From: Fusobacterium mortiferum ATCC 9817
Lineage (GTDB): Bacteria; Fusobacteriota; Fusobacteriia; Fusobacteriales; Fusobacteriaceae
Direction of reading: 5' to 3'
DNA: 64,000 nt
Assembly (NCBI RefSeq): GCF_000158195.2
Contig: NZ_GL987988.1
Span: 547,632-611,631, forward strand
Shown here: piece after piece, positions 3,146-64,000 of the stretch
How positions within the stretch are numbered: position 1 is the stretch's first letter
Layout of the letters: every line of letters starts with the position of its first letter
Notes under the pieces: model-generated
The model's database searches: none
The model's input: the letters and a program-made list of their open reading frames with translations, nothing else
What the model was told of the DNA's origin: nothing
Program-made: the position numbers and the translations under genes

Positions 3146-4495
3146 ATGAGTATATCAGCAAAGCAATATGTTGAAAATGTAATTGAAAAAGTAAAAAGAC
3201 AAAATAAAGGAGAAGATGAATTTATACAAGCTGTAGAAGAAGTATTGACAAGTCTTACTCCATTTATAGAAAAAAATCCACAATACATAGAAGCAAATAT
3301 ATTAGAGAGAATAGTTGAACCAGAAAGAATAATAATGTTTAAAGTTCCTTGGGAAGATGACAATGGAAATATTCAAGTAAACAGAGGATATAGAGTAGAA
3401 TTCAATGGAGTAATTGGACCATACAAAGGAGGACTTAGATTCCATCCAACAGTTACTTTAGGGGCTATGAAATTTTTAGGATTTGAACAAACTTTTAAAA
3501 ATTCACTTACAGGGTTACCAATAGGTGGAGGAAAAGGAGGAAGTGACTTTAACTCTACTGATAAATCTGAGAGAGAGATAAAAAGATTCTGTGAAAGTTT
3601 TATGACTGAGCTATATCGTCATATAGGTCCAGATAAAGATGTCCCAGCTGGAGATATTGGAGTTTCTGGAAAAGAGATAGGATATCTATTTGGACACTAT
3701 AGAAGAATAAAGGGAGCATATGAAAATGGAGTACTTACAGGGAAACATTTAAACTATGGTGGAAGCAAAATTAGACCTGAAGCAACTGGATATGGACTTA
3801 CTTACTTTACACAAGAGATATTAAAAGATATGGGAGAAACTTTTGAAGGAAAAACTGTAGCAGTATCTGGATATGGAAACGTAGCTTGGGGAACTGCTGA
3901 GAAGATGACAGAATTAGGAGCAAAAGTAGTTACTATCTCTGGGTCAAAAGGATATGTATATGCTAAAGATGGACTTACTAAAGAGCAAATAGATTATATG
4001 CTAGTTTTAAGAGCTAATAAAGATGTAACTTTAAAAGATTTTGCTGAGAAATTTGGATTGGAATATTTTCCTGGACAAAAACCTTGGGGAGTAAAAGTGG
4101 ATATAGCTGCCCCTTGTGCAATTCAAAATGAGATTGTATTAGAGGATGCAAAATTATTAGTAGCTAATGGAGTAAAAGTGGTTTGTGAAGGAGCTAATAT
4201 GCCATGCTCTAATGAGGCAATAGATCTATTTGAAAAAAGTGGAGTAAAATTTGGAGCAGCTAAGGCAGCTAATGCTGGTGGAGTTGCTGTATCAGCTCTT
4301 GAGATGTCACAAAATAGTATGAGATATCAATGGAGTGAAGAGGAAGTAGATAAAAAATTACAAGAGATAATGAAAGGCATCTATCAAAAAGCTAAAGAGA
4401 TGAGTGAAGAGTATGGTGTTACATTAGCAGCTGGAGCTAATATAGCTGGATTTAAAAAAGTTGCTGATACTATGCTTATGCAAGGAAATTATTAA
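3146..4495 (+). CDS. gdhA: NADP-type glutamate dehydrogenase
   Basis: A 449-residue hexameric-type glutamate dehydrogenase interconverting glutamate and 2-oxoglutarate plus ammonia in the cytoplasm. The N-terminal half carries the substrate domain with the PIGGGKGGSDF lysine loop and the GPDKDVPAGDIGV loop. The C-terminal half carries the Rossmann nucleotide site (VSGYGNVAWG) and the late motif GAAKAANAGGVA. Length is normal for the bacterial small GDH. The start ATG follows AAGGAGG. It stands alone, with a strong terminator at about 4529. In amino-acid-fermenting anaerobes such an enzyme links glutamate fermentation to nitrogen assimilation; the NADP preference is from family resemblance. 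Confidence 0.96.
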   Translation: MSISAKQYVENVIEKVKRQNKGEDEFIQAVEEVLTSLTPFIEKNPQYIEANILERIVEPERIIMFKVPWEDDNGNIQVNRGYRVEFNGVIGPYKGGLRFHPTVTLGAMKFLGFEQTFKNSLTGLPIGGGKGGSDFNSTDKSEREIKRFCESFMTELYRHIGPDKDVPAGDIGVSGKEIGYLFGHYRRIKGAYENGVLTGKHLNYGGSKIRPEATGYGLTYFTQEILKDMGETFEGKTVAVSGYGNVAWGTAEKMTELGAKVVTISGSKGYVYAKDGLTKEQIDYMLVLRANKDVTLKDFAEKFGLEYFPGQKPWGVKVDIAAPCAIQNEIVLEDAKLLVANGVKVVCEGANMPCSNEAIDLFEKSGVKFGAAKAANAGGVAVSALEMSQNSMRYQWSEEEVDKKLQEIMKGIYQKAKEMSEEYGVTLAAGANIAGFKKVADTMLMQGNY

Positions 4496-4528
4496 TTGAT
4501 TAAAAAAATCAGTTAATACAAAATATGA

Positions 4529-4587
4529 AAAATAGGGAGCTTGAGAAACGACTTTGTAAAATCGGTTTTAAGCCTCCTATTTTTTTA
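4529..4587 (+). terminator. Terminator after gdhA containing a repeated mini-hairpin
   Basis: Outer arms AATAGG (4531-4536) and CCTATT (4576-4581) extend inward as an almost complete stem, followed by seven T. The loop carries a 27-nt element (4546-4572) that recurs with 23/27 identity at 59234-59260. Confidence 0.8.
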
Positions 4588-4821
4588 TTTTGGACTAATT
4601 ATATGGTTAAAAAATATAGTGTTTTAAGCTTCTAAAATAGTGTTTTTAGCTGAAGCTCTAACCTTGAATTAAAGGGTCTTCTAGGAGATAAAAAAATAAA
4701 AAATACATACGTTATTTTATTTATTTACTAATTATTGTTAATAAAATTGATAAAAATAAAGAAAATATTAAAATTATCTATTTACTTTTTTATAATAAAT
4801 GCAAGAAATATATTTAGTTTT
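4588..4821. other. Gene-free AT-rich stretch with a short direct repeat
   Basis: Together with the terminator this makes a gap of about 330 bp between gdhA and the YchJ-like gene. It holds a 14-nt near-exact direct repeat (4617-4630 and 4638-4651, TAGTGTTTT[A/T]AGCT, 21 bp apart) and the complementary pair AGCTTC/GAAGCT around it. I see no ORF, tRNA or recognisable RNA here. Confidence 0.5.
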
Positions 4822-5163
4822 TTATGAATTATTTATAGGTAACCAACCTTTATAGTACCAATGTCTACCTTTTTTTACAAAGTAGCTTCTCTCATGATGT
4901 ACTACTTCTTCTCCACTAATTAAATCTATATACTTAGCTTTAAACTCTACTATCCCCTCTTTATCAAATTGAGTTCCAGCTATGGTTTCTACAATTTCAA
5001 GACCTAACCATTTAGAATTTTTAGACCATTCTTCTGCTTCTTTCCAATCTATTCCTTTAGCTGTTTTAGGGTCGTGTGTATTTTTTATAAATTCAATATC
5101 TCCCTTAGTATAAGCTTCATATCTAGCTTTCATAAGTTCAAGAGCTGTCTTTGGATTACTCAT
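4822..5163 (-). CDS. YchJ-like (UPF0225-type) NTF2-fold protein without SEC-C motifs
   Basis: A 113-residue protein that aligns by eye with the middle domain of E. coli YchJ: RYEAYTKGDIEFIKNTHDP near the N-terminus, KWLGLEIVE at about 50, and ERSYFVKKGRHWYYKGW near the end. Unlike YchJ it has no N- or C-terminal Cys-rich SEC-C zinc motifs, so it is a bare NTF2-like domain. The start ATG 5163 follows GGAGG. It is divergent from recG, with about 116 bp between them. No reaction is known for this domain. Confidence 0.75.
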   Translation of the reverse strand: MSNPKTALELMKARYEAYTKGDIEFIKNTHDPKTAKGIDWKEAEEWSKNSKWLGLEIVETIAGTQFDKEGIVEFKAKYIDLISGEEVVHHERSYFVKKGRHWYYKGWLPINNS

Positions 5164-5279
5164 CTTTACCTCCGATAATTTTTTATCTTAATTATATCAT
5201 TTTTTTAAAGATATTTCTTTAGAAAGTTAATAATATCTATGATATAATAAAAGATATTGAAAAGGAAAGGAGTGAGAAA

Positions 5280-7334
5280 GTGGGAAGATATAACACAATA
5301 TATTGGCCATTGGAAAACATAGACATCGGTATAGATGCTAAAAATTTAAAAAAGTTAGAGAAGCTGGGAATAAAATCAATAGCTGATATGCTCTACTACT
5401 TTCCAAGAGCCTATGATGATAGAACTAATATAAAAAAAATAGGAGAGTTGAGAGGGGAGGAGTATGTAGTTTTAAAAGCTACACTTATGACTGTAACAGC
5501 TCCCCCTACTCGTTCAGGACTTAAGATGGTAAAAGCTACTGCCACAGATGGAAGTGGGATAATAGAGTTGGTATGGTTTCAGATGCCATATCTTAGAAAA
5601 ACTCTTAAGATAGGAGAGGAATATATATTTATTGGTCAAGTCAAGAGAGGATATATATTTCAGATAGTAAATCCAGAGTTTAAGTTGAGTAGTAATCAAA
5701 AGAGATTAGATGAGGGAGAGATACTCCCAATATATAGTTCAAGTAAGGAGTTACCACAGAACTCTTTAAGAAAACTTATGGAGAAGATGTTAAATACAAC
5801 TCTTGCTGTAATAGAAGAAAATATTCCAGAAGAGATTATAAAAAAATACAAACTTATGGGGAGAAAAGAGGCTCTAAGAGAGATACATTTTCCTAAGAAT
5901 AGTAAAAATTTAGAGGAAGCTAAAAGACGTTTTGCTGTAGAAGAACTTTTAGTTTTAGAGATGGGAATACTCCAGAAAAGGTTTGAAGTGGATAATCAAA
6001 ATATAGAGAGGTATCATCTTGAGGATAAAAAAACTTTAGTGAAAGCTTATCTATCATCTTTACCTTTTGAACTTACTAATGCACAAAAGAGAGTAATCAC
6101 AGAGATATATAAAGACTTAGCAAATGGAAGAGTGGTCAATAGGTTAGTACAGGGAGATGTAGGAAGTGGAAAGACTGCTGTATCTATGGTGTTACTTCTA
6201 TATATGTTAGAAAACTCTTATCAAGGGGTACTTATGGCTCCAACAGAGATATTAGCTGTACAGCATTATCTTTCAGTAAAGGATAAATTTGAAAAACTTG
6301 GAGTGAGAGTAGAACTACTTACAGGAAGTTTTACTGGAAAGAAGAAACAAAGACTTTTAGAAGATATAGCAAATGGAGATGTAGGGATAGTAATAGGAAC
6401 ACATGCACTTATAGAAGAGAGTGTAGTTTTTCATAGATTAGGTATGATAATAATAGATGAGCAACATAGATTTGGAGTATTGCAAAGAAAGGCTCTAAGA
6501 GATAAAGGAGTGCTTGCTAATCTTGTGGTAATGAGTGCTACACCTATTCCACGTTCATTAGCACTGAGTATCTATGGAGATTTAGATGTATCTGTAATAG
6601 ATGAGTTACCACCAGGGAGAAAACCAATTCGTACTAAGTGGATAGCCACAGATGAAGAGATAGAAACTATGTATGATTTTATAGATAAAAAGCTTTCCCA
6701 AGGAAGGCAAGCTTACTTTATAGCTCCACTTATAGAGGAGAGTGAAAAACTTTCAGCAAAATCAACAGCAGAGCTTATGGAAGAGGTAGAAAAATTTTTA
6801 CCAAATTATAAGATAGGAGTTTTACATGGAAAAATGAAAAACTCTGAAAAAGATGAGATAATGAGTAGATTTAAAAATAAAGAATTGGATATCTTAGTAT
6901 CTACAACGGTTATAGAGGTAGGGGTGGACGTACCTAACTCATCTATAATTGTAATCAATAATGCTGAGAGATTTGGACTCTCTGCTCTACATCAACTACG
7001 TGGGAGAGTTGGAAGAGGGCAGTATCAATCTTACTGTTTTTTAGTTTCTAAGACAGATAATGCTACTTCAAAGGCTAGACTTCAAGTTATGGAAGAGACA
7101 CAAGATGGATTTAAAATAGCCGAAGAGGATTTGAGACTTAGAAAGTCTGGAGAGATTTTTGGTACAAGGCAGAGTGGATTAAGTGATTTAAAATTTGTAG
7201 ATATAGTACATGATGTAAAAACTATAAAACTTGTTAAAGATATATGTTATGAATATTTAAAAGAGAATCATGGTGAGATAAAAAATGAATATCTTCTTGT
7301 AGATATTTCTGAAAAGTTTAAAGAGGTAAAATAA
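5280..7334 (+). CDS. recG: ATP-dependent DNA helicase RecG
   Basis: A 684-residue superfamily 2 helicase that remodels stalled forks and Holliday junctions. It has an N-terminal wedge/OB domain (roughly residues 60-150), Walker A GDVGSGKT near 290, the Walker B box DEQH near 393, SATPIPR (motif III), and the C-terminal motifs TTVIEVGVDVPN and QLRGRVGRG. The start is a GTG at 5280 preceded by GGAAAGGAG; no better ATG is near. A TATAAT with a TG extension lies at 5243-5248. The proS gene follows 87 bp later with its own promoter. Confidence 0.97.
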   Translation: MGRYNTIYWPLENIDIGIDAKNLKKLEKLGIKSIADMLYYFPRAYDDRTNIKKIGELRGEEYVVLKATLMTVTAPPTRSGLKMVKATATDGSGIIELVWFQMPYLRKTLKIGEEYIFIGQVKRGYIFQIVNPEFKLSSNQKRLDEGEILPIYSSSKELPQNSLRKLMEKMLNTTLAVIEENIPEEIIKKYKLMGRKEALREIHFPKNSKNLEEAKRRFAVEELLVLEMGILQKRFEVDNQNIERYHLEDKKTLVKAYLSSLPFELTNAQKRVITEIYKDLANGRVVNRLVQGDVGSGKTAVSMVLLLYMLENSYQGVLMAPTEILAVQHYLSVKDKFEKLGVRVELLTGSFTGKKKQRLLEDIANGDVGIVIGTHALIEESVVFHRLGMIIIDEQHRFGVLQRKALRDKGVLANLVVMSATPIPRSLALSIYGDLDVSVIDELPPGRKPIRTKWIATDEEIETMYDFIDKKLSQGRQAYFIAPLIEESEKLSAKSTAELMEEVEKFLPNYKIGVLHGKMKNSEKDEIMSRFKNKELDILVSTTVIEVGVDVPNSSIIVINNAERFGLSALHQLRGRVGRGQYQSYCFLVSKTDNATSKARLQVMEETQDGFKIAEEDLRLRKSGEIFGTRQSGLSDLKFVDIVHDVKTIKLVKDICYEYLKENHGEIKNEYLLVDISEKFKEVK

Positions 7335-7358
7335 TAGTTAAGAAAGATTAAAAAACTT

Positions 7359-7388
7359 TAGACAAAATAAGAGATAATATGATAAAAT
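7359..7388 (+). promoter_or_regulatory. Probable proS promoter
   Basis: TAGACA (7359-7364), an 18-bp spacer and TAAAAT (7383-7388). The surrounding AAAACTTTAGACAAAAT is identical to the sequence upstream of ligA (43381-43397), which supports it as a real -35 region. Confidence 0.55.
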
Positions 7389-7421
7389 ATAAAGTAAAAT
7401 AAAATTTATATGGAGGAAAAA

Positions 7422-9131
7422 ATGAGATTCAGTAAGAGTTATATTAAGACACTTAAAGAAACTCCAAAAGAAGCAGAGATAGCAAGTCATAAACTTCTTT
7501 TGAGAGCTGGAATGATTAAGAAATTAACTAGCGGAGTGTATACTTACCTACCGTTAGGATTAAAAGCTCTTAAAAAAGTAGAAAATATTGTAAGAAGAGA
7601 GATGGATAGAGCAGGAGCTCAAGAGATATTCATGCCAGTATTACAACCAGCTGAACTTTGGAAAGAGAGTGGAAGATGGGAAGTAATGGGGCCTCTTATG
7701 ATGAAATTACAAGATAGAGCTAAGAGAGATTTCGTATTAGGACCAACTCACGAAGAAGTAGTAACTGATGTTATCAGAAATGATGTTGCTTCATACAAGC
7801 AATTACCTTTAAACCTTTACCAAATTCAAACTAAATTTAGAGATGAGATAAGACCAAGATTTGGACTTATGAGAGGAAGAGAGTTTATAATGAAAGATGC
7901 TTACTCTTTCCATGCTACAAGAGAGTCTTTAGATGAAGAGTTTGATAATATGGAAGCTACTTATAAGAGAATTTTCTCAAGCTGTGGTTTAAAATTTAGA
8001 CCTGTTGAGGCTGACTCTGGAGCAATAGGAGGAAGTGGATCAAAAGAGTTCCACGTATTAGCAGATTCTGGAGAAGATGAAATCATCTACTGTGAGAGCT
8101 GTGATTACGCAGCAAACGTAGAAACAGCTGTAAGTAAAGTTTTCCATGCTGAAAAAGAGGAATTAAAAGCTGTAGAATTAGTAGATACTCCAAATGTATC
8201 TAAAATAGAAGATGTAGTAGAATACTTAAAAGTTCCTGTGGAGAGAACAGTAAAAGCTATGATGTATAGAGATATGGGAACTGACCAAGTATATATGGTT
8301 TTAATCAGAGGAGATTATGAAGTTAATGAAACTAAGCTTAAAAATGCTGTAGATGCAATAGAGGTTGAGTTATTAACTGATGAGCAATTAGAAAAGTTAG
8401 GACTAGTAAAAGGATTTATTGGACCATTTGGAATTGATTTAGGAGATATCAAAGTAGTAGCTGATGATACTGTATTAGAGATTACTAATCACACAGCTGG
8501 AGGAAATAAAATAGATACTCACTATATTAATGTAAACTATGGAAGAGATTACAAAGCTGATATAATAAAAGATGTAAAAACTGTAAAACCTGGACACGTT
8601 TGTGAAAAATGTGGAGGAACTCTTGCTTCTGCTAGAGGAATAGAGGTTGGACATATATTCAAACTAGGAACTAAATACTCTGAAAAATTAGAAGCTACAT
8701 TTATAGATGAGAAAGGTGTAACACATCCAATAATAATGGGATGTTATGGAATAGGAGTTTCAAGAACTCTTGCTTCTGCTATTGAGCAAAACAATGATGA
8801 ATTTGGAATTGTTTGGCCATCAGCAATAGCTCCATATGTAGTAGATGTAATTCCAGCTAATATGAAAGATGCTGAACAAGTTGCTCTTGCTGAAGAGTTA
8901 TACAACTCATTATTAGATGAGGGAATAGATACTATACTTGATGATAGAGATGAAAGACCTGGATTTAAATTTAAAGATGCTGACTTAATAGGATTCCCAT
9001 TCAAAGTAATTTGTGGTAAAAAAGCTGCTGAGGGAATTGTTGAGTTAAAGATAAGAAAGACAGGAGAAACTTTTGAAATCTCTAAAGATGAAGTGATATA
9101 TAAAGTAAGAGAGTTAATGAAACAATACTAG
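7422..9131 (+). CDS. proS: Prolyl-tRNA synthetase, bacterial type with editing insert
   Basis: A 569-residue class II aminoacyl-tRNA synthetase charging tRNA-Pro. Motif 1 lies in the first 90 residues, motif 2 in the region FRDEIRPRFGLMRGREF, and motif 3 in GCYGIGVSRTLAS. A long insertion between motifs 2 and 3 (about residues 220-390) is the Ala-editing domain of the bacterial-type enzyme. The C-terminal anticodon-binding domain ends the protein. An upstream in-frame ATG at 7410 is actually part of the ribosome site (ATGGAGGAAAAA), so ATG 7422 is the start. A hairpin terminator follows at 9144. Confidence 0.97.
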   Translation: MRFSKSYIKTLKETPKEAEIASHKLLLRAGMIKKLTSGVYTYLPLGLKALKKVENIVRREMDRAGAQEIFMPVLQPAELWKESGRWEVMGPLMMKLQDRAKRDFVLGPTHEEVVTDVIRNDVASYKQLPLNLYQIQTKFRDEIRPRFGLMRGREFIMKDAYSFHATRESLDEEFDNMEATYKRIFSSCGLKFRPVEADSGAIGGSGSKEFHVLADSGEDEIIYCESCDYAANVETAVSKVFHAEKEELKAVELVDTPNVSKIEDVVEYLKVPVERTVKAMMYRDMGTDQVYMVLIRGDYEVNETKLKNAVDAIEVELLTDEQLEKLGLVKGFIGPFGIDLGDIKVVADDTVLEITNHTAGGNKIDTHYINVNYGRDYKADIIKDVKTVKPGHVCEKCGGTLASARGIEVGHIFKLGTKYSEKLEATFIDEKGVTHPIIMGCYGIGVSRTLASAIEQNNDEFGIVWPSAIAPYVVDVIPANMKDAEQVALAEELYNSLLDEGIDTILDDRDERPGFKFKDADLIGFPFKVICGKKAAEGIVELKIRKTGETFEISKDEVIYKVRELMKQY

Positions 9132-57195: not shown

Positions 57196-57241
57196 TTTTT
57201 AATCTAAGTATTGATTTTATTGAGTTAGTTTAGATTAAAAA
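57196..57241. terminator. 12-bp perfect hairpin after guaA
   Basis: TTTTTAATCTAA (57196-57207) and TTAGATTAAAAA (57230-57241), loop 22 nt. No T run follows the 3' arm, so it is a stem of uncertain role rather than a clear terminator. Confidence 0.5.
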
Positions 57242-57279
57242 AAGGCTCTGACAATAAAATGACAATGTTTTAAAAATTT

Positions 57280-57308
57280 ACCTCTAGTAATTTAACTAGG
57301 GGTTTTTA
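57280..57308. terminator. Terminator at the guaA/prophage junction
   Basis: ACCTCTAGT (57280-57288) pairs with ACTAGGGGT (57295-57303) with one G-U, followed by TTTT on the plus strand. It separates guaA from the convergent prophage genes. Confidence 0.65.
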
Positions 57309-57310
57309 TG

Positions 57311-57796
57311 TTATTTTTTCTTATACTCTTGATATTGAGTAAGAACTTTTTTTAATTTTTCAGGAATTGGAATCCCACAAATAGAAGCATTTTCTAAAAT
57401 ACTTAATCCTTCATTTGAAATAAATACTCCTACAGCTAGAGTTTTAATAGCTAGTTTACCATCAAAAAGAATATCTAATTGATAGGCTAACACTATAATC
57501 AGGATAATCATAACTTTTTTTAAAATACCTATTATCCCAGCTTTAGAATTTGCTGTACAAGTAATAAAAGCTTTTATAACTCCAGATAAGTAATCCACAG
57601 TCATTAGTATTAATAAAACATTCATGGCATCATCTTGCCCACCTGTAACAAGAAAAATAAAGGCTACTAGACTTCCTAATCCTATTGTTATCCCATTTCC
57701 AAGTATTTTTATGACATCAACTATAAGTAATATGAAATTCCCAAGTATTTCCCATAGTGTTTCTCCTGTTGCTCTAATAAATTCTCCCATACTCAC
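57311..57796 (-). CDS. Phage holin, family 4 type
   Basis: A 161-residue membrane protein with about four hydrophobic segments, of the phage_holin_4 family (also in toxin-secretion holins). GGQDDAMNVLLILMTVDYLSGVIKAF is the familiar core (shown only in part: MTVDYLSGVIKAF). It makes the membrane hole that releases the endolysin. The start ATG 57796 follows AAAGGAGTG. It is the last gene before the guaA junction. Confidence 0.85.
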   Translation of the reverse strand: MSMGEFIRATGETLWEILGNFILLIVDVIKILGNGITIGLGSLVAFIFLVTGGQDDAMNVLLILMTVDYLSGVIKAFITCTANSKAGIIGILKKVMIILIIVLAYQLDILFDGKLAIKTLAVGVFISNEGLSILENASICGIPIPEKLKKVLTQYQEYKKK

Positions 57797-57800
57797 TCCT

Positions 57801-58046
57801 TTAGTTTGTAAATAAATAATTTATAAATTTGTCAAAAACATTAAACCAATAAGGTGTAATAGCTAAGGATGGAAATAGAGATGCTAATACACACATTAAA
57901 AATACTCCTATGAAAATAAAAGCTAATGTTTTAGAAAATACATCTATTTTTTTTATTTCAATATCTTGTTGTTTTTCTGCATCCTTGCTTCTTTTAAAAA
58001 TAATATCTAATAATTTACTTCCTAGACTAACCAAAGTATTTATCAT
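57801..58046 (-). CDS. Small phage membrane protein, possible accessory holin/antiholin
   Basis: An 81-residue protein with a charged N-terminal half (FKRSKDAEKQQDIEIKKID) and one or two hydrophobic segments (about 39-60). Its position between endolysin and holin suggests a second lysis protein such as an antiholin; the sequence matches no family I recognise. AAGGAG ribosome site. Confidence 0.55.
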   Translation of the reverse strand: MINTLVSLGSKLLDIIFKRSKDAEKQQDIEIKKIDVFSKTLAFIFIGVFLMCVLASLFPSLAITPYWFNVFDKFINYLFTN

Positions 58047-58067
58047 TTAATCTCCTTTTTCGCAAGC

Positions 58068-58481
58068 TTACGAATTTTTATATTGAAAATGAGGATAATC
58101 ACTAAAGTTTTTCCAATCTCCTCCCCACTCGATATTATATTTTTTCATTAATTCTCTAGCTGAATCTGCTACATCTTTAAATACTTTTTTATTCCAATTA
58201 CTTTTATTATCAATAATTACAGCTATATCAAAAGCATATCCTAATCCATCAGCTTTTACTTGATGTTTAGATTTTATTTTATAACCATCACATTTAGTTA
58301 CAATTTTTCCTGGTATAGTTCTTCCTTGTTGATATATTTTATTCTGCTCTTCTGCTGTTCTAACTCCACAGGTTATACTGATATCATATGGAGTTACTTT
58401 TATTAATTCTGTAGCAAATTCTTGTAATTTTGGGTGTAATCCCTCTAAGTTATTTAAACTTCTTTTACTAAATTTATACAT
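58068..58481 (-). CDS. M15-family endolysin (D-Ala-D-Ala carboxypeptidase/L-Ala-D-Glu endopeptidase type)
   Basis: A 137-residue peptidase of the M15/VanY fold. Zinc ligands lie in SKHQVKADGLGYAFDIA (His about 75, Asp about 88) and WGGDWKNFSDYPHFQ (His near 131). As phage endolysin it cuts peptidoglycan peptides. No signal peptide, so it depends on the holin. It starts after AAGGAG. Confidence 0.9.
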   Translation of the reverse strand: MYKFSKRSLNNLEGLHPKLQEFATELIKVTPYDISITCGVRTAEEQNKIYQQGRTIPGKIVTKCDGYKIKSKHQVKADGLGYAFDIAVIIDNKSNWNKKVFKDVADSARELMKKYNIEWGGDWKNFSDYPHFQYKNS

Positions 58482-58577
58482 ATATTTTCTCCTTATTTGT
58501 CAATTTTTTTATCAAGATAAACTCAATGTTTACAGCACTTAAATTTTTTTATTTTTCACAAATAATCCCTCCTTATT

Positions 58578-59153
58578 TTATTTATTCCAATAACTTTTAA
58601 TGTTATTGTATCTTCTTTTGACATCTTGGGGATTTATTTGTCCCCATTTTTGATTAAGTTTAAATTTTAATATCATTTCTGGAGTTATTACCTCTCCTTT
58701 TTCTTTAAGCCATTTGTGCATCTGGCCATTGTAACTTAAAAATAATTGATTATGGTAATCCAGTAGATGAATAAATGTTTCACTATCTTGTACTTCAATA
58801 TCTAGAATGAGAGTAGATAGATATTCTATACTACTCTTTATATGAGATAAATCTAAATCATCTATTTCTTTTTTGTGTTCCTGGAGCTTAATTGTTAAAT
58901 CATCTATAGATGGGTCTAGTGATAGTAATCTTTCAATATCCTTATCACTAAATCCTATTCCTTTTAAGAAATTTCTAGCAGCAGGATTACCTGTTACATC
59001 AAATTGACTTCTTCCAAAGCTGTAACCACTCTTTCCTCCAGCATAAGAAAAGCGATATGGAGCTCTTGGATTATCTCCTACCTCATTTAATGCTATTGCT
59101 TGCATAGCAGAGATAGGATTAATTTTAGGAATTATATCTTTTATTTTCATCAT
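58578..59153 (-). CDS. Lysozyme-like phage protein
   Basis: A 191-residue protein with an early Glu (ALNEVG, about 24) and the block GGKSGYSFGRSQFDVTGNP (about 39-57) that resembles lysozyme-like active sites, where Glu and the G(S)FGxxQ loop lie in the cleft. A second murein-cutting enzyme beside the M15 endolysin would be unusual but known. Two adjacent ATGs (59153, 59150); 59150 has better spacing to AGGAGG. Call by pattern only. Confidence 0.6.
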   Translation of the reverse strand: MMKIKDIIPKINPISAMQAIALNEVGDNPRAPYRFSYAGGKSGYSFGRSQFDVTGNPAARNFLKGIGFSDKDIERLLSLDPSIDDLTIKLQEHKKEIDDLDLSHIKSSIEYLSTLILDIEVQDSETFIHLLDYHNQLFLSYNGQMHKWLKEKGEVITPEMILKFKLNQKWGQINPQDVKRRYNNIKSYWNK

Positions 59154-59205
59154 ATTCCTCCTTTTTTATCAGATATAACTGACAAAAATATTATTTTAGG
59201 TAATT

Positions 59206-59257
59206 TTATAAGTTATACTTGATAACTTATAAAAAACGACCTCGCAAAATCGTTTTT
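59206..59257. terminator. Double hairpin between prophage genes, second half a repeated mini-element
   Basis: TTATAAGTTAT/ATAACTTATAA (59206-59216/59222-59232) and AAAAACGA/TCGTTTTT (59232-59239/59250-59257), with T runs on both strands. The second hairpin is part of a 27-nt element (59234-59260) matching 4546-4572 at 23 of 27 positions. Confidence 0.65.
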
Positions 59258-59302
59258 AAGGCACATCAAAAGTAAAAGAGGTATTAAAGTATGACTAGGA
59301 TA

Positions 59303-59620
59303 TTAGAAAAATTTATTGAATCTATTTTTAAATTTTTCTAAGGCATCAGATGGCTTAGGAATAACTATTTCCTCTTCCCCAACTTCTTCTAAAGCAGCTA
59401 CTTTTAAAACTTCTTCTTTTTGCTCTTCAGGGAATAATACTTTTTCAGCATTGTCCATAAATTCATTGTAATCATCTAAAACATGAGCATCTTCCATCTT
59501 ATCTTTTCCTCTTGGAGTATCTAGTTTTTTATATTCTTCATATTGCTCTCTTAAACCTTGTATTCCTTCTTCTCTTTCTACAATTCCTCTTAATACTTTT
59601 ATTTCTTCTTTTGTTAACAT
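59303..59620 (-). CDS. Uncharacterised phage protein, short paralogue of the tail assembly-like protein
   Basis: A 105-residue acidic, helical protein. Its QYEEYKKLDTPRGKDKME and C-terminal SDALEKFKNRFNKFF resemble QYREYEGMDTPSTIKEME and SKALETFKNKFNSK of the upstream 310-residue protein, so it looks like a duplicate of that protein's C-terminal domain. AAAAGGAGTG ribosome site. The function is not known; tail-fibre assembly is a guess from position. Confidence 0.55.
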   Translation of the reverse strand: MLTKEEIKVLRGIVEREEGIQGLREQYEEYKKLDTPRGKDKMEDAHVLDDYNEFMDNAEKVLFPEEQKEEVLKVAALEEVGEEEIVIPKPSDALEKFKNRFNKFF

Positions 59621-59638
59621 AATAAATCACTCCTTTTT

Positions 59639-60571
59639 TTATTTTGAATTAAATTTATTTTTAAAAGTTTCTAATGCTTTACTTGCATGTGGTATATCTA
59701 TTTCTTTTTCAACTAAAGCTATAGTTCTAGCTCTTACTTGTTTTTGTTCTTGTAATGAGTACATCAAAGTTCTAAGCTCTATCATCATAGTTACATACTC
59801 TTCTGAAAGAGCTGGGTCTTGTAATTCCATTTCTTTAATGGTTGATGGAGTATCCATTCCTTCATACTCTCTATATTGAGCTTGAACTCTATCATAATCA
59901 GTAGTTAAGTCTATCCAAATATGATTTTCCTTATCCCAGTCATTAACAAGATATTTAGGAGGACAAGGAACTGTAATAAGTTCTTGCTTTTCTTCATCTA
60001 TATATTGTCCTGGTTCTAGTATAATGATATTTTCTTTGAATATTACTTCATTTTCAGAGAGTTTTCTTTGTCCTCTTTGGTATTTTTCATACTCTGTTGC
60101 TTCTCTAATTATATTTCCCTCATCTATTGAGATATAGAAAGGGATATCTTTTCCAAAATGACTATATACCTCTTTTTGAAAATATTGATTAGGATTTTTT
60201 AAAGGTTTTGGAAACACTGCTATTACTTGAGATTTATGGAACTTATCAGCATAAGCTTTATCAAGATAAAAATATTGTTTTTCAGGGTCTACCTCAACTT
60301 CTTCATCAAAATCACTTTCTACTTCTTGAATTTCTTCTGATAACATTCTAGGTGCTATTTCTTCTATCTCAATAAGTTCTTCAATATTATTTAAGGTTTC
60401 ATTATATTTGAATTTATGAGGAATATCTATCCCTTCATAAATTAGTATTTCTTGAATATTAAAGCATACTTTTCTTTCTTCAAGCTCTTCTTGGCTTATT
60501 TCTTTTTCAGATACAGCAATACATTTTGCTATACCTTGTTTTGCTAACTCTTTATCTAAATAAAATAACAT
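59639..60571 (-). CDS. Phage tail-fibre assembly-like protein
   Basis: A 310-residue protein rich in Glu, without a fold I can name. It starts with MLFYLDKELAKQGIAKCIAV and repeats that idea at about 103-125 (YFYLDKAYADKFHKSQVIAV), so the N-terminal half contains an internal duplication. The C-terminal 100 residues match the next ORF. Its position right after the tail-fibre gene and invertible segment is where Tfa-type chaperones lie. AAAGGAG ribosome site. Confidence 0.55.
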   Translation of the reverse strand: MLFYLDKELAKQGIAKCIAVSEKEISQEELEERKVCFNIQEILIYEGIDIPHKFKYNETLNNIEELIEIEEIAPRMLSEEIQEVESDFDEEVEVDPEKQYFYLDKAYADKFHKSQVIAVFPKPLKNPNQYFQKEVYSHFGKDIPFYISIDEGNIIREATEYEKYQRGQRKLSENEVIFKENIIILEPGQYIDEEKQELITVPCPPKYLVNDWDKENHIWIDLTTDYDRVQAQYREYEGMDTPSTIKEMELQDPALSEEYVTMMIELRTLMYSLQEQKQVRARTIALVEKEIDIPHASKALETFKNKFNSK

Positions 60572-60649
60572 TTATAAACTCCTTTCTTATTAATTATATA
60601 TATATAACTATTTAGTTTTCTTTTCTCATAACTCTCTAACATAGCTTGT

Positions 60650-60668
60650 AATTTAAAAATTTCTGTCC
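60650..60668 (+). repeat. Inverted repeat, outer copy of the predicted DNA-inversion site
   Basis: AATTTAAAAATTTCTGTCC; the same 19 bases occur in reverse orientation at 61589-61607. It marks the left border of the invertible segment. Confidence 0.8.
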
Positions 60669-61119
60669 TTTCCCAGTAAATTCACTATATCTTTCACTAG
60701 GTAATGAAAATCCCTCAACTTTATGGTTAGGTACTACATGGGCTAAGCAAGAAGGTAGGTTTTTACTGGGTAGTAGTTCATCTTATGGATTAGGAATTAC
60801 TGGAGGAGCTAGTACTGTTAAACTAACTATTGCTAACTTACCTAGTCATACACATAGTGCCACTACTGCTGCTCATACTCATACTCAGCCAGCTCATACT
60901 CATAAAATAAAAGGATATAATAATGAACAAGCTGATGGTCCTAATTTAGCTGGAGCTGGAGGATGGGAGACTACTAAAAATGCAATAACAGAAAGTGCTG
61001 GAGGAGAAACAACAGGAAGTGCATCTCCAGTAACTTCAATAGGAGCAACAGGAAGTGGAACAGCTTTCTCTATTATGCCACCTTACTTGGTAGTCAATAT
61101 ATGGAAAAGACTAAGTTAG
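60652..61119 (+). CDS. Silent alternative C-terminus of the tail fibre (no start codon, opposite strand)
   Basis: An open frame of 155 codons on the plus strand without start codon or ribosome site, preceded directly by a stop (TAA 60649-60651). It begins FKNFCPF inside the inverted repeat, as the expressed fibre does at residue 85, and continues LGTTWAKQEGRFLLGSS, then HTHS and HTHTQPAHTHK repeats, ending PPYLVVNIWKRLS. This is a collar/fibre C-terminus homologous to that of the minus-strand gene (LGTTWQKIEGRFLLGTS, ...MWLRLT). Inversion of 60650-61607 would attach it in frame to the fibre N-terminus, giving a protein of 239 residues. Confidence 0.85.
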   Translation, partial: FKNFCPFPVNSLYLSLGNENPSTLWLGTTWAKQEGRFLLGSSSSYGLGITGGASTVKLTIANLPSHTHSATTAAHTHTQPAHTHKIKGYNNEQADGPNLAGAGGWETTKNAITESAGGETTGSASPVTSIGATGSGTAFSIMPPYLVVNIWKRLS

Positions 61120-61123
61120 TCTT
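61107..61123. repeat. Palindrome where the two fibre C-termini meet
   Basis: AAGACTAAGTTAGTCTT has 8-bp arms around G61115. The two stop codons overlap within it: the plus frame ends at 61119 and the minus frame at 61111, a 9-bp overlap. Confidence 0.7.
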
Positions 61124-61857
61124 AGCCACATGTGAACTGTATAATAAGCTGGTGTGATATCCAAGGCTTGTCCATTACCTAAATTCACTGTTTGAGGTTG
61201 AGCTGTATTAGTAGTTCCTGTCCAAGAACGTGAGGCTTGAAAGCCAATTTTATATCCAGAACCACTATCTCCACCGTGTCCACCTAATCCAGTTTGCTTT
61301 GTATAAAATGCTCCACTTCCAGCATATTTTATATAATTTGATGTATAAAAATCTCCAGTAATTTCCATAGTACCTCTTGAAAGAGAGAAACTATCAAGTT
61401 GGATTTTTACAGCTGGGAGATTAGCTTGAGTAATAGTTTTAGCATTACTACCACCAGTGGCTTTACTAGCTCCACTACCTGAAGTACCAAGTAAGAAACG
61501 ACCTTCTATCTTCTGCCAAGTGGTACCTAAAAAGATACTAGATGGGTTAGTAGAATTAGTAGTTAAATAGATATCTCCCACTTTAAATGGACAGAAATTT
61601 TTAAATTTCTCATTAATTTCACTTTCAGTAAAGTATCTATCATCATGTGTATGACTTTTAGGAGCATAATCATGTGTATGAGAAGTATTAGCTTTTTTCT
61701 TTAGTTCTCCATTATAATATCCCATTAAAGCAGCTACGAGAGCTTCAGTGCTCTCATAGTCTACTAATTTCTTTAAAGCTTTTTCTAATGCTTGAGTATA
61801 TACTTCACTAATACCAAGTTGTTCTTTAACTAAGTTTATTCTTTCTTTTAAACTCAT
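61111..61857 (-). CDS. Phage tail fibre, expressed form with switchable C-terminus
   Basis: A 248-residue tail-fibre/collar protein. Residues 1-84 are constant: a helical start, then HTHDYAPKSHTHDDRYFTE. From residue 85 (FKNFCP, encoded by the inverted repeat) the variable part runs with GDIYLTTNSTNPSS, FLGTTWQKIEGRFLLG and a Gly/Ser-rich tip ending VHMWLRLT. The ribosome site is AAGGAG before ATG 61857. Its 3' end overlaps the silent alternative C-terminus on the other strand by 9 bp. This layout is that of an invertible host-range gene such as Mu S/U. Confidence 0.85.
   Translation of the reverse strand: MSLKERINLVKEQLGISEVYTQALEKALKKLVDYESTEALVAALMGYYNGELKKKANTSHTHDYAPKSHTHDDRYFTESEINEKFKNFCPFKVGDIYLTTNSTNPSSIFLGTTWQKIEGRFLLGTSGSGASKATGGSNAKTITQANLPAVKIQLDSFSLSRGTMEITGDFYTSNYIKYAGSGAFYTKQTGLGGHGGDSGSGYKIGFQASRSWTGTTNTAQPQTVNLGNGQALDITPAYYTVHMWLRLT
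61589..61607 (-). repeat. Inverted repeat, inner copy of the predicted DNA-inversion site
   Basis: GGACAGAAATTTTTAAATT is the exact reverse complement of 60650-60668, and lies inside the tail-fibre frame as codons for FKNFCP. The flanking A makes AAATTTTTAAATTT, a dyad around a TT centre. Confidence 0.8.
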
Positions 61858-61869
61858 ATTATCAACTCC

Positions 61870-62658
61870 TTAAGCTCCAGCTCCTTTATATTTATCAATA
61901 ATGGCTTGAGCTTCTTCTTCCGTCATTGTATTATTTAAGGCTGTTTCTACTGTTGTTGCTTTTGATAAAGCACTCTCAGCTGTACTTTTAGCTGTATTAG
62001 CTGTTTGACTAGCTGTTCCAGCTTGTTGTAAAGCTGAGGCACTATCAGTAGCTGCTTTATTCCATTTAGTTTTTTCTGCATCTGTTACAAATCTATGACT
62101 TGTATCCTCAGTTATCATAGAAGCTGGATGACTAGATGGATGAGTATAATTATTAGCTCCAGCTTGGATACCATCTAATTTTTTCTTGTCTTCCTTACTC
62201 ATTAAACCATCTGAACTTTGAGTAGCGTTTCCAGGTAAAAATAAATCTCCTAATGCTTGCCAATCATTAACTTCTTCAGCTTCATAAATTAACATAGTAT
62301 TCTTATTTTTATAAGTTGGTTCTTGAGTTACTATTACATAGTATCCTTCTTTTGGAGCTGGAATAGCAGATTTTAAAGCTTCCAAAGTTTCATATACTCC
62401 CTTCCAAGCTAGCCCACTAGCAAAGGTATTTATTGCTGCCGTTAATTGTTCTTGTGATACTTTATCACCCCAAGTTTTTTTCTCTTGAGGACTTACAAAC
62501 TTTTTGCTATCTGTCTCTGTTACTTGGTCAGCACTATGTGTATGTGAAGATTCTGCTTTTGTTTTTATTAATGCTATAATCTCTTTAGCTAAAAGGTCAT
62601 AAGCTACTTCATCTATTATTTTCTTTCCATTTGCTAGCATATTTACTAATTTTTCCAT
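61870..62658 (-). CDS. Phage tail fibre protein
   Basis: A 262-residue fibre protein with the typical blocks SSHTHSADQVTETDSKKFVSP (shown in part: HTHSADQVTETDSKKFV), then YYVIVTQEPTYKNKN, LDGIQAGANNYTHP and FVTDAEKTKWNKA, followed by an Ala/Ser/Thr-rich helical stretch. It ends EEEAQAIIDKYKGAGA, a tail shared with the next two upstream genes. Likely upstream partner of the switchable fibre. The ribosome site is TAGGAGTG. Confidence 0.8.
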   Translation of the reverse strand: MEKLVNMLANGKKIIDEVAYDLLAKEIIALIKTKAESSHTHSADQVTETDSKKFVSPQEKKTWGDKVSQEQLTAAINTFASGLAWKGVYETLEALKSAIPAPKEGYYVIVTQEPTYKNKNTMLIYEAEEVNDWQALGDLFLPGNATQSSDGLMSKEDKKKLDGIQAGANNYTHPSSHPASMITEDTSHRFVTDAEKTKWNKAATDSASALQQAGTASQTANTAKSTAESALSKATTVETALNNTMTEEEAQAIIDKYKGAGA

Positions 62659-62670
62659 ATTTCATCACTC

Positions 62671-63219
62671 CTATTTTTTATACTTATTTATTATTGCTTG
62701 TGCTTCTTCTAAAGTAATGATATCCTTTTGCATATCATCTTTAAGTTGGTCCGCATACTCTTTTAATTCATTTTTAGAATTTTTTAAAATCTCATATAAC
62801 TCATCTACTATATCTTTTACATATTCTTTTTCATCACTAGGTAATAAAGGCTCTAGAAATTCCCAATCTTTTTTTTCAACAACATGGAAATATACTTCTT
62901 GAATACTACCTACTATCTTTCCTCTATCAGAATTTCTTAATACTAATCTACAAAATACTTTTCCAAATCCCTGTAATATTTCATTAGGAATAGCAATATC
63001 TATATTAGTAGTTATTGTACTATCTATTTCCTTCTCAACTACATAAGGCTCAGTAGGATTATTAGAACTGCAAAATACAGCTCTAATATTACCTTGAAAA
63101 TCTTTTAAATTTTTTAAAACTATTTTTATATTTCCTATTCCGTAGTCGCCTTGGAGGAAAAATATGGGAGAAAAATTTGCAATTCTAAGTATATCCCAAT
63201 ATACAATCATTTCTTTCAA
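62671..63219 (-). CDS. Baseplate/receptor-binding upper protein-like (BppU-type) phage protein
   Basis: A 182-residue protein whose FFLQGDYGIGNIKIVLKN near 22 resembles the N-terminal domain of BppU baseplate proteins. A helical C-terminal third ends in EEAQAIINKYKK. The best start is TTG 63219, 9 nt after AGGAGG that lies at the end of the upstream gene; ATG 63210 is too far (18 nt). The BppU resemblance is by eye. Confidence 0.6.
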   Translation of the reverse strand: MKEMIVYWDILRIANFSPIFFLQGDYGIGNIKIVLKNLKDFQGNIRAVFCSSNNPTEPYVVEKEIDSTITTNIDIAIPNEILQGFGKVFCRLVLRNSDRGKIVGSIQEVYFHVVEKKDWEFLEPLLPSDEKEYVKDIVDELYEILKNSKNELKEYADQLKDDMQKDIITLEEAQAIINKYKK

Positions 63220-63223
63220 GATA

Positions 63224-63484
63224 TCACTCCTCCTTAACCTTATACTTTTCCACTAAAGCTGTCATTTCTTGAGGAGTAGTTATTTTAGGATTTATATTAA
63301 TTACACCATTTTCATCAATAGAAATAGTTTCTCCTATTTTTATTCTTCCTAATTCTGTCTTAGTTGCTTTTTTTATCAACTCTTCATCAAGAATATCCAT
63401 GTTATCATTAAATACTCTTATATCTGCTACCTCAGTATCCCAATTTGGTTTTTTTAAATTAAGATTAGGTGTTAATTCTGGCAT
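63224..63484 (-). CDS. Small phage tail-fibre-like protein
   Basis: An 86-residue protein: LNLKKPNWDTEVADIRVFNDNMDILDEEL is the pattern often found at the start of phage tail-fibre proteins (shown in part: FNDNMDILDEEL). It ends PQEMTALVEKYKVKEE, another version of the KYK tail seen in the next two genes. Its ATG shares one base with the stop of the DUF2313-like gene. Confidence 0.6.
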   Translation of the reverse strand: MPELTPNLNLKKPNWDTEVADIRVFNDNMDILDEELIKKATKTELGRIKIGETISIDENGVININPKITTPQEMTALVEKYKVKEE

Positions 63485-64000
63485 TAAATTCCCTCCTTTT
63501 TCATAACTTCTTCCCAGGTAAATTGGCTATAATATTCCCAAGTTTTAGGGGGTAAATCTCCCCATAATCTATATCTATATTGAAAATTTATTCCTAAATG
63601 AGCTGGCTTAGCTTCTCCTAGTGATGCTTTTAAAACTTCAATATCATCTGGAATACCAATTAAAGAAATAAAAACTATTTCAATAGTTCCATCGATAAAT
63701 TTAACATCAATTTCTCCATTTCTCCAGCTATTAGCAATAGTTTGGAGTAACTCTAAATCACATTTACCTGTTGTTTTCCATCTTGCTTCTATTTCAATTC
63801 TTTTTCCTTCAATAGTGGTAGATTTAGTTTTATAATTTAATTCTTTTTCAAGTTCTTGAATCCTCTCTAATGACATAGTAGAGAATAAGAACTCTTTTCC
63901 AAGTAAAGTCATCTTATCTTTTACTTCATCTAAATGTAATCCAGCTGGATTTAAAATAGCATTAATAAACTCATCTTTTCTAATTATTTTATGTAAATTA
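63484..64000 (-). CDS. DUF2313 (YmfQ/gp48-type) tail protein, truncated by the window edge
   Basis: The frame is open to base 64000, so the N-terminal part is missing. Visible is LNPAGLHLDEVKDK before the ATG at 63912, which agrees with DUF2313 continuing upstream, and ELLQTIANSWRNGEIDVKF and HLGINFQYRYRLWGDLPP at the C-terminal end. DUF2313 proteins follow baseplate J genes in Mu- and P2-like contractile phages. The apparent start at 63912 is internal. Confidence 0.78.
   Translation of the reverse strand, partial: NLHKIIRKDEFINAILNPAGLHLDEVKDKMTLLGKEFLFSTMSLERIQELEKELNYKTKSTTIEGKRIEIEARWKTTGKCDLELLQTIANSWRNGEIDVKFIDGTIEIVFISLIGIPDDIEVLKASLGEAKPAHLGINFQYRYRLWGDLPPKTWEYYSQFTWEEVMKKEGI

Follow-up and report, generated by a model that had tools for sequence, protein, structure and literature searches.

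Analysis of a prophage of Fusobacterium mortiferum ATCC 9817 revealed a 958-bp segment that is, in our judgment, very probably a two-cassette orphan remnant of the tyrosine-recombinase-driven tail-fibre shufflons carried by Fusobacteriaceae prophages. Recombination at the two 19-bp sites bounding this segment would invert the intervening 958 bp and join the constant N-terminus of the fibre (residues 1-84) to the other of two Gp10_C tips. In relatives of the locus, the inverting enzyme is predicted to be an armless XerC/D-like tyrosine recombinase whose gene lies within the array; here, the recombinase gene and a second pair of cassettes are missing, and what was most likely a Rin-like shufflon would have decayed to an orphan two-state switch, either locked in its present orientation or flipped rarely by a related recombinase acting in trans from another phage or prophage.

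The DNA analyzed (hereafter, the window) is a 64,000-nucleotide stretch spanning positions 547632-611631 of contig C2 of the F. mortiferum genome (G000). The prophage begins at about 57.3 kb of the window, after guaA, and continues past the window end; genes for the tail, baseplate, capsid, portal and terminase follow. Its relevant features are listed below, with reference to two relatives harboring the same site, L048 (in genome G022 of the same genus) and L047 (a phage from IMG/VR).

59154-59302: junction at which a tyrosine recombinase and a second pair of cassettes are present in the relatives but not here (from DNA matches to L048 and L047)
59303-59620, minus strand: 105-aa ORF with similarity (34% over 83 aa) to the 3′ end of the 310-aa gene, probably a leftover of rearrangement
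59639-60571, minus strand: 310-aa gene adjoining the fibre, without Pfam or PHROG match, likely fibre-associated; L048 has a 76% identical gene at the corresponding position
60650-60668, plus strand: outer recombination site, 19 bp, AATTTAAAAATTTCTGTCC (direct reading)
60650-61607: putative invertible segment, 958 bp (in-silico inversion; inversion seen in a related array)
60652-61119, plus strand: alternative fibre C-terminus, silent, 155 codons with a Gp10_C domain and no usable start codon
61107-61123: palindrome AAGACTAAGTTAGTCTT, tail-to-tail end of both frames, with overlapping stops
61111-61857, minus strand: tail-fibre gene, 248 aa, with constant N-terminus (1-84), site and Gp10_C domain (residues 91-246)
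61589-61607, minus strand: inner recombination site, in frame in the fibre gene, encoding FKNFCP (residues 85-90; direct reading)

The two arms are exact reverse complements of each other over 19 bp and each occurs once in the window. Thirty Markov simulations of the 64-kb sequence gave no exact 19-bp repeat with inverted arms 100-2000 bp apart, and a mean of 0.03 such repeats of 17 bp per simulated window. When the site was written in the W/Y-degenerate form AATTWAAAAATTTCTGYCC, it was present in just three of the 61 genomes of the family (the same pattern read backwards, used as a control, gave one match in total), and its two occurrences in the F. mortiferum genome are the two arms. The plus-strand frame at 60652-61119 is directly preceded by a stop and remains open for 155 codons, without any start upstream of codon 142. 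Both tips match the Pfam family Gp10_C (PF21939) with E-values of about 1e-14, the domain starting where the site ends, and are about 47% identical to each other in aligned DNA, as opposed to the exact identity of the arms. In-silico inversion of the 958 bp yielded an intact fibre of 239 residues of which the first 91 are unchanged, such that both orientations of the segment encode intact fibres. The anatomy given in the preliminary description of this DNA, from the perfect repeat and its in-frame inner copy to the startless opposite frame, the homologous tail-to-tail C-termini and the replacement of a 248-residue fibre by a 239-residue one, was thus reproduced in every particular, and the silent tip is intact, without decay. 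As in shufflons, each C-terminus is opened by an inverted copy of one short site that is rare elsewhere in the genome, and a startless alternative C-terminus lies silent, in the same phase, at the repeat of the site that follows the constant fibre N-terminus. Judging from domain similarity, the fibre may bind a receptor, in which case a swap of tips would change receptor specificity.

The two relatives carry larger arrays of this type. In L048, the site differs from that of the window by one letter and occurs four times, twice per orientation, each copy opening a different Gp10_C-type tip; a 329-codon frame encoding a tyrosine recombinase lies between two tail-to-tail pairs of tips. L047 likewise carries four copies of the site, with another single-letter difference, and four tips, and the recombinase in its array shares 78-80% identity with the L048 enzyme. 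Both arrays run from the fibre through a first pair, a gene in fibre-assembly position, the recombinase and a second pair to the lysis genes; the window has the fibre, one pair, the 310-aa gene, the 105-aa ORF and then the lysis genes. Window positions 59300-59342 match the L048 DNA found just before the recombinase, where similarity to L048 stops, and positions 58608-59169 match L047, similarity to which resumes just after the last of its sites; the recombinase and the second pair are thus missing exactly at this point. We infer from this comparison that they were lost here rather than gained in the relatives. Since the dedicated tyrosine invertase present in the arrays of L047 and L048 is absent from the prophage, the locus is best described as an orphan derivative of a shufflon rather than as a full member.

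The relationships among tips fit a past exchange between silent and expressed positions. The silent tip of the window shares 68% identity with one of the silent tips of L048 (dN 0.30 and dS 0.94, values that are rough at such divergence), a tip 54% identical to the same silent tip is fused to an ordinary fibre in genome G025, and the nearest relative of the expressed tip of the window (62%) is silent in L048. In genome G006, the end of contig C52 coincides with the end of a window-type site within the fibre gene, and contig C63 breaks off 57 bp past another copy of the site; such contig ends, like the N gaps described below, are indirect signs of inversion. As a candidate second orphan, G006 is no more than suggestive, its assembly holding a decayed recombinase only and no Gp10_C tip. 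None of the assemblies and viral contigs that we searched had the exact segment of the window in the opposite orientation; IMG/VR, queried with the exact 19-mer and the degenerate site, returned L047 as its sole match and thus no strain with the opposite orientation.

The absence of a recombinase from the window, pointed out in the preliminary description, extends to the rest of the prophage, where none was found other than an ordinary integrase at C2:631.4 kb. This integrase was considered as the inverting enzyme and set aside, for it has an arm-binding domain, is of the normal type and shows no sign of a role in inversion. A search of the whole genome with the L048 enzyme retrieved two related recombinases, distant integrases and nothing else; as the two belong to other clades, the cognate enzyme is, to judge from an assembly that is 99.9% complete, absent, making the switch an orphan. 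No serine invertase was found near the prophage: the prophage has no PF00239 match, the nearest on the contig lies about 130 kb away, and a small serine invertase adjoins another prophage fragment, beside which no array turned up. That enzyme (C2:1097068-1097772, or 12069-12773 of L139) sits beside a contig-end prophage fragment sharing 311 bp at 98% identity with window positions 58551-58861. Separately, a short intergenic element at window positions 59204-59292 is repeated at C2:1097001-1097062 and C5:49454-49521, near lysis or invertase genes, and has no Rfam match; nor did any part of the window from 57200 to 64000. A scan of genome contigs revealed no relatives of the fibre protein, and DNA matches to named phages were distant and confined to the lysis genes.

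Thirteen of the 61 genomes of the family harbor the array enzyme. The array recombinases have the PF00589 catalytic domain without any match to an arm-binding domain, and 20 of them share, without exception, the RHRHY residues R165, H260, R263, H285 and Y295 (numbered as in L048) as well as K190. In most arrays, the sites encode [K/stop][LF]xN[LF] and have an AATT-n4-AATTT-like core, and within each array the site letters are invariant while the flanking codons vary. The enzymes associated with FKN-type sites (L047, L048 and L120) form one clade with a support of 0.999. Of the two recombinases of the F. mortiferum genome, one belongs to the LQN clade and the other to the LDN/LEN clade, both of which go with other sites. 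The two are intact, with identities of 52% and 48% to the enzyme of L048. They are encoded at C2:778938-779894 and C5:53003-53950, each in a prophage array of its own: L052 (C2:771000-789000; LQN-type site, array at L052 4430-8898) and L053 (C5:44000-63000; LDN-type site, array at L053 7334-10721). Both arrays contain 100-N gaps and duplicated tips that are 100% identical, as would be expected if several arrangements had been sequenced together, which makes them indirect evidence of switching. The window prophage has neither, and its segment assembled cleanly in one orientation; this lends no more than indirect support to locking.

Inversion itself was observed in a related array. Cetobacterium sp. 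2A carries one prophage in triplicate, with flanks that are 99.9-100% identical between copies. The arrays of the copies differ by inversions: one inversion of 1001 bp separates L116 from L118, and one of 2277 bp separates L117 from L118. All ends of these inversions fall at a 13-bp repeat, ATTAGAGAATTTA, and the recombinase is 73% identical to that of L052 and about 55% identical to that of L048. Arrays of this family thus demonstrably invert, at a site which, in Cetobacterium, differs from that of the window. Taken with the homologous same-site arrays, these three inversion states bear out the proposal, made from the letters of the window, of an invertible segment exchanging the fibre C-terminus; present-day switching of this particular segment would have to do without its cognate recombinase, which is missing from the prophage and the genome alike.

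The same kind of locus was noticed in the named Fusobacterium phages phiRTG5 (L112; OR492272.1) and Funu1 (L113; KR131710.1) and in a plasmid (L132; NZ_CP077186.1); there, the annotation calls the recombinase an integrase and lists the silent tips as hypothetical proteins. The largest array seen (L079; IMGVR_UViG_2940373808_000003, positions 3934-7913) has about ten LENL-type sites and different tips on both strands. Scans of plasmids further brought up distant recombinases beside tape-measure genes, and ones 35-37% identical were seen directly upstream of or near tape-measure-like genes in phage-plasmids and phages of 130-165 kb of Bacillus, Limosilactobacillus and Lysinibacillus (L129, L130 and L131).

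That the segment should still be actively switching, through the action in trans of the recombinase at C2:778938-779894, that at C5:53003-53950 or another one, appears unlikely. The genome does hold these two intact homologues, the AATT-n4-AATTT-like core is common to most site types, the perfect identity of the arms fits continued use, and Rci-type invertases are documented to use non-cognate sites to some extent (PMC11852207), by analogy with which trans action on the window segment could take place. The sites of the window, however, differ in centre and flank from those of L052 and L053, the two recombinases belong to other clades, and the segment is free of gaps in its one orientation, unlike the two enzyme-bearing arrays. 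We similarly regard as doubtful the corollary that the fibre type of one phage is set by its neighbor, the orphan switch being flipped by the recombinase of a different prophage in the same cell.

Two further explanations are far less probable. Mu and P1 switch their fibres with serine invertases, and the F. mortiferum genome encodes one such enzyme (a phrog_125 match of 234 aa, the DNA invertase at C2:1097068-1097772), beside a prophage fragment. Yet it is encoded about 490 kb away from the segment, no invertible array was recognized in the 9 kb examined beside it, and in both same-site relatives a tyrosine recombinase lies inside the array, leaving very little room for inversion by an enzyme of the Gin/Cin/Hin type. 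Nor do we give much credence to a fixed tail-to-tail duplication of tips in which the repeat reflects chance or conserved codons and nothing inverts. A prophage devoid of recombinase and a single orientation are what such a duplication would leave, but the arms match exactly over 19 bp whereas the tips share about 47% of their aligned DNA, flanking codons vary within an array in which the site letters do not, the silent frame is startless and still undecayed, and a sibling array inverts. Our preferred reading remains that of a two-cassette remnant of a tyrosine-recombinase shufflon.

In the shufflon of plasmid R64, the tyrosine recombinase Rci acts at short asymmetric sfx sites to exchange the C-terminus of PilV, a pilus-tip adhesin. 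The Fusobacteriaceae arrays resemble it in their type of recombinase, their short asymmetric sites and the exchange of C-terminal segments of an adhesin, but differ from it in site sequence and enzyme, and what they exchange is Gp10_C domains of a phage fibre rather than PilV C-termini. The G segment of Mu and the C segment of P1 are inverted by the serine recombinases Gin and Cin at 26-bp gix/cix sites with the help of an enhancer. The parallel drawn to them in the preliminary description holds for function, a two-state inversion replacing the C-terminus of a phage tail fibre, but not for the class of enzyme, the arrays of the relatives holding tyrosine recombinases, in line with its own caveat that the recombinase might be of another type.

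The closest known system is the Rin shufflon of Bifidobacterium prophages (PMC6109161), a similar locus of which occurs in Eggerthella lenta prophages (PMC8778435). Shared with Rin are a phage fibre or receptor-binding protein whose N-terminus stays constant while its C-termini can be swapped, short repeats that keep the codon phase, inversions that set one prophage copy apart from another, and a comparable armless XerD-like tyrosine recombinase in the array that is distinct from the integrase. Differences lie in the phylum, the Gp10_C tip domain, the often tail-to-tail cassettes, the site (13-19 bp encoding [LF]xN[LF] in Fusobacteriaceae versus the 11-bp TTCCCTAACCC of Rin) and, in the window copy, the missing enzyme. 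Bifidophages 689b-1 and Bb423phi2 also have a simple two-state inverted locus in the structural gene region with no adjoining recombinase, for which trans action was proposed (PMC6109161). Theirs, however, involves an 8-bp repeat and genes of unknown function and was actually observed in opposite orientations, whereas the window locus exchanges fibre tips, has known enzyme-bearing relatives and was seen in one orientation.

Our search of the literature joining Fusobacterium, prophage and shufflon returned no paper, and no report in Fusobacteriota was found. Thus, while the kind of system is already known from the Rin loci of bifidophages, we did not find the tyrosine-recombinase tail-fibre shufflon family of Fusobacteriaceae described in the literature searched. 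The present finding points to such a family in Fusobacteriaceae phages, the enzyme of which goes under the name of integrase in named phages. A single genome in which two arrays have an enzyme and a third lacks one, all three using different sites, makes the orthogonality or cross-action of the recombinases testable, and the orphan array allows the fate of a phase-variable fibre after the loss of its enzyme to be asked directly.
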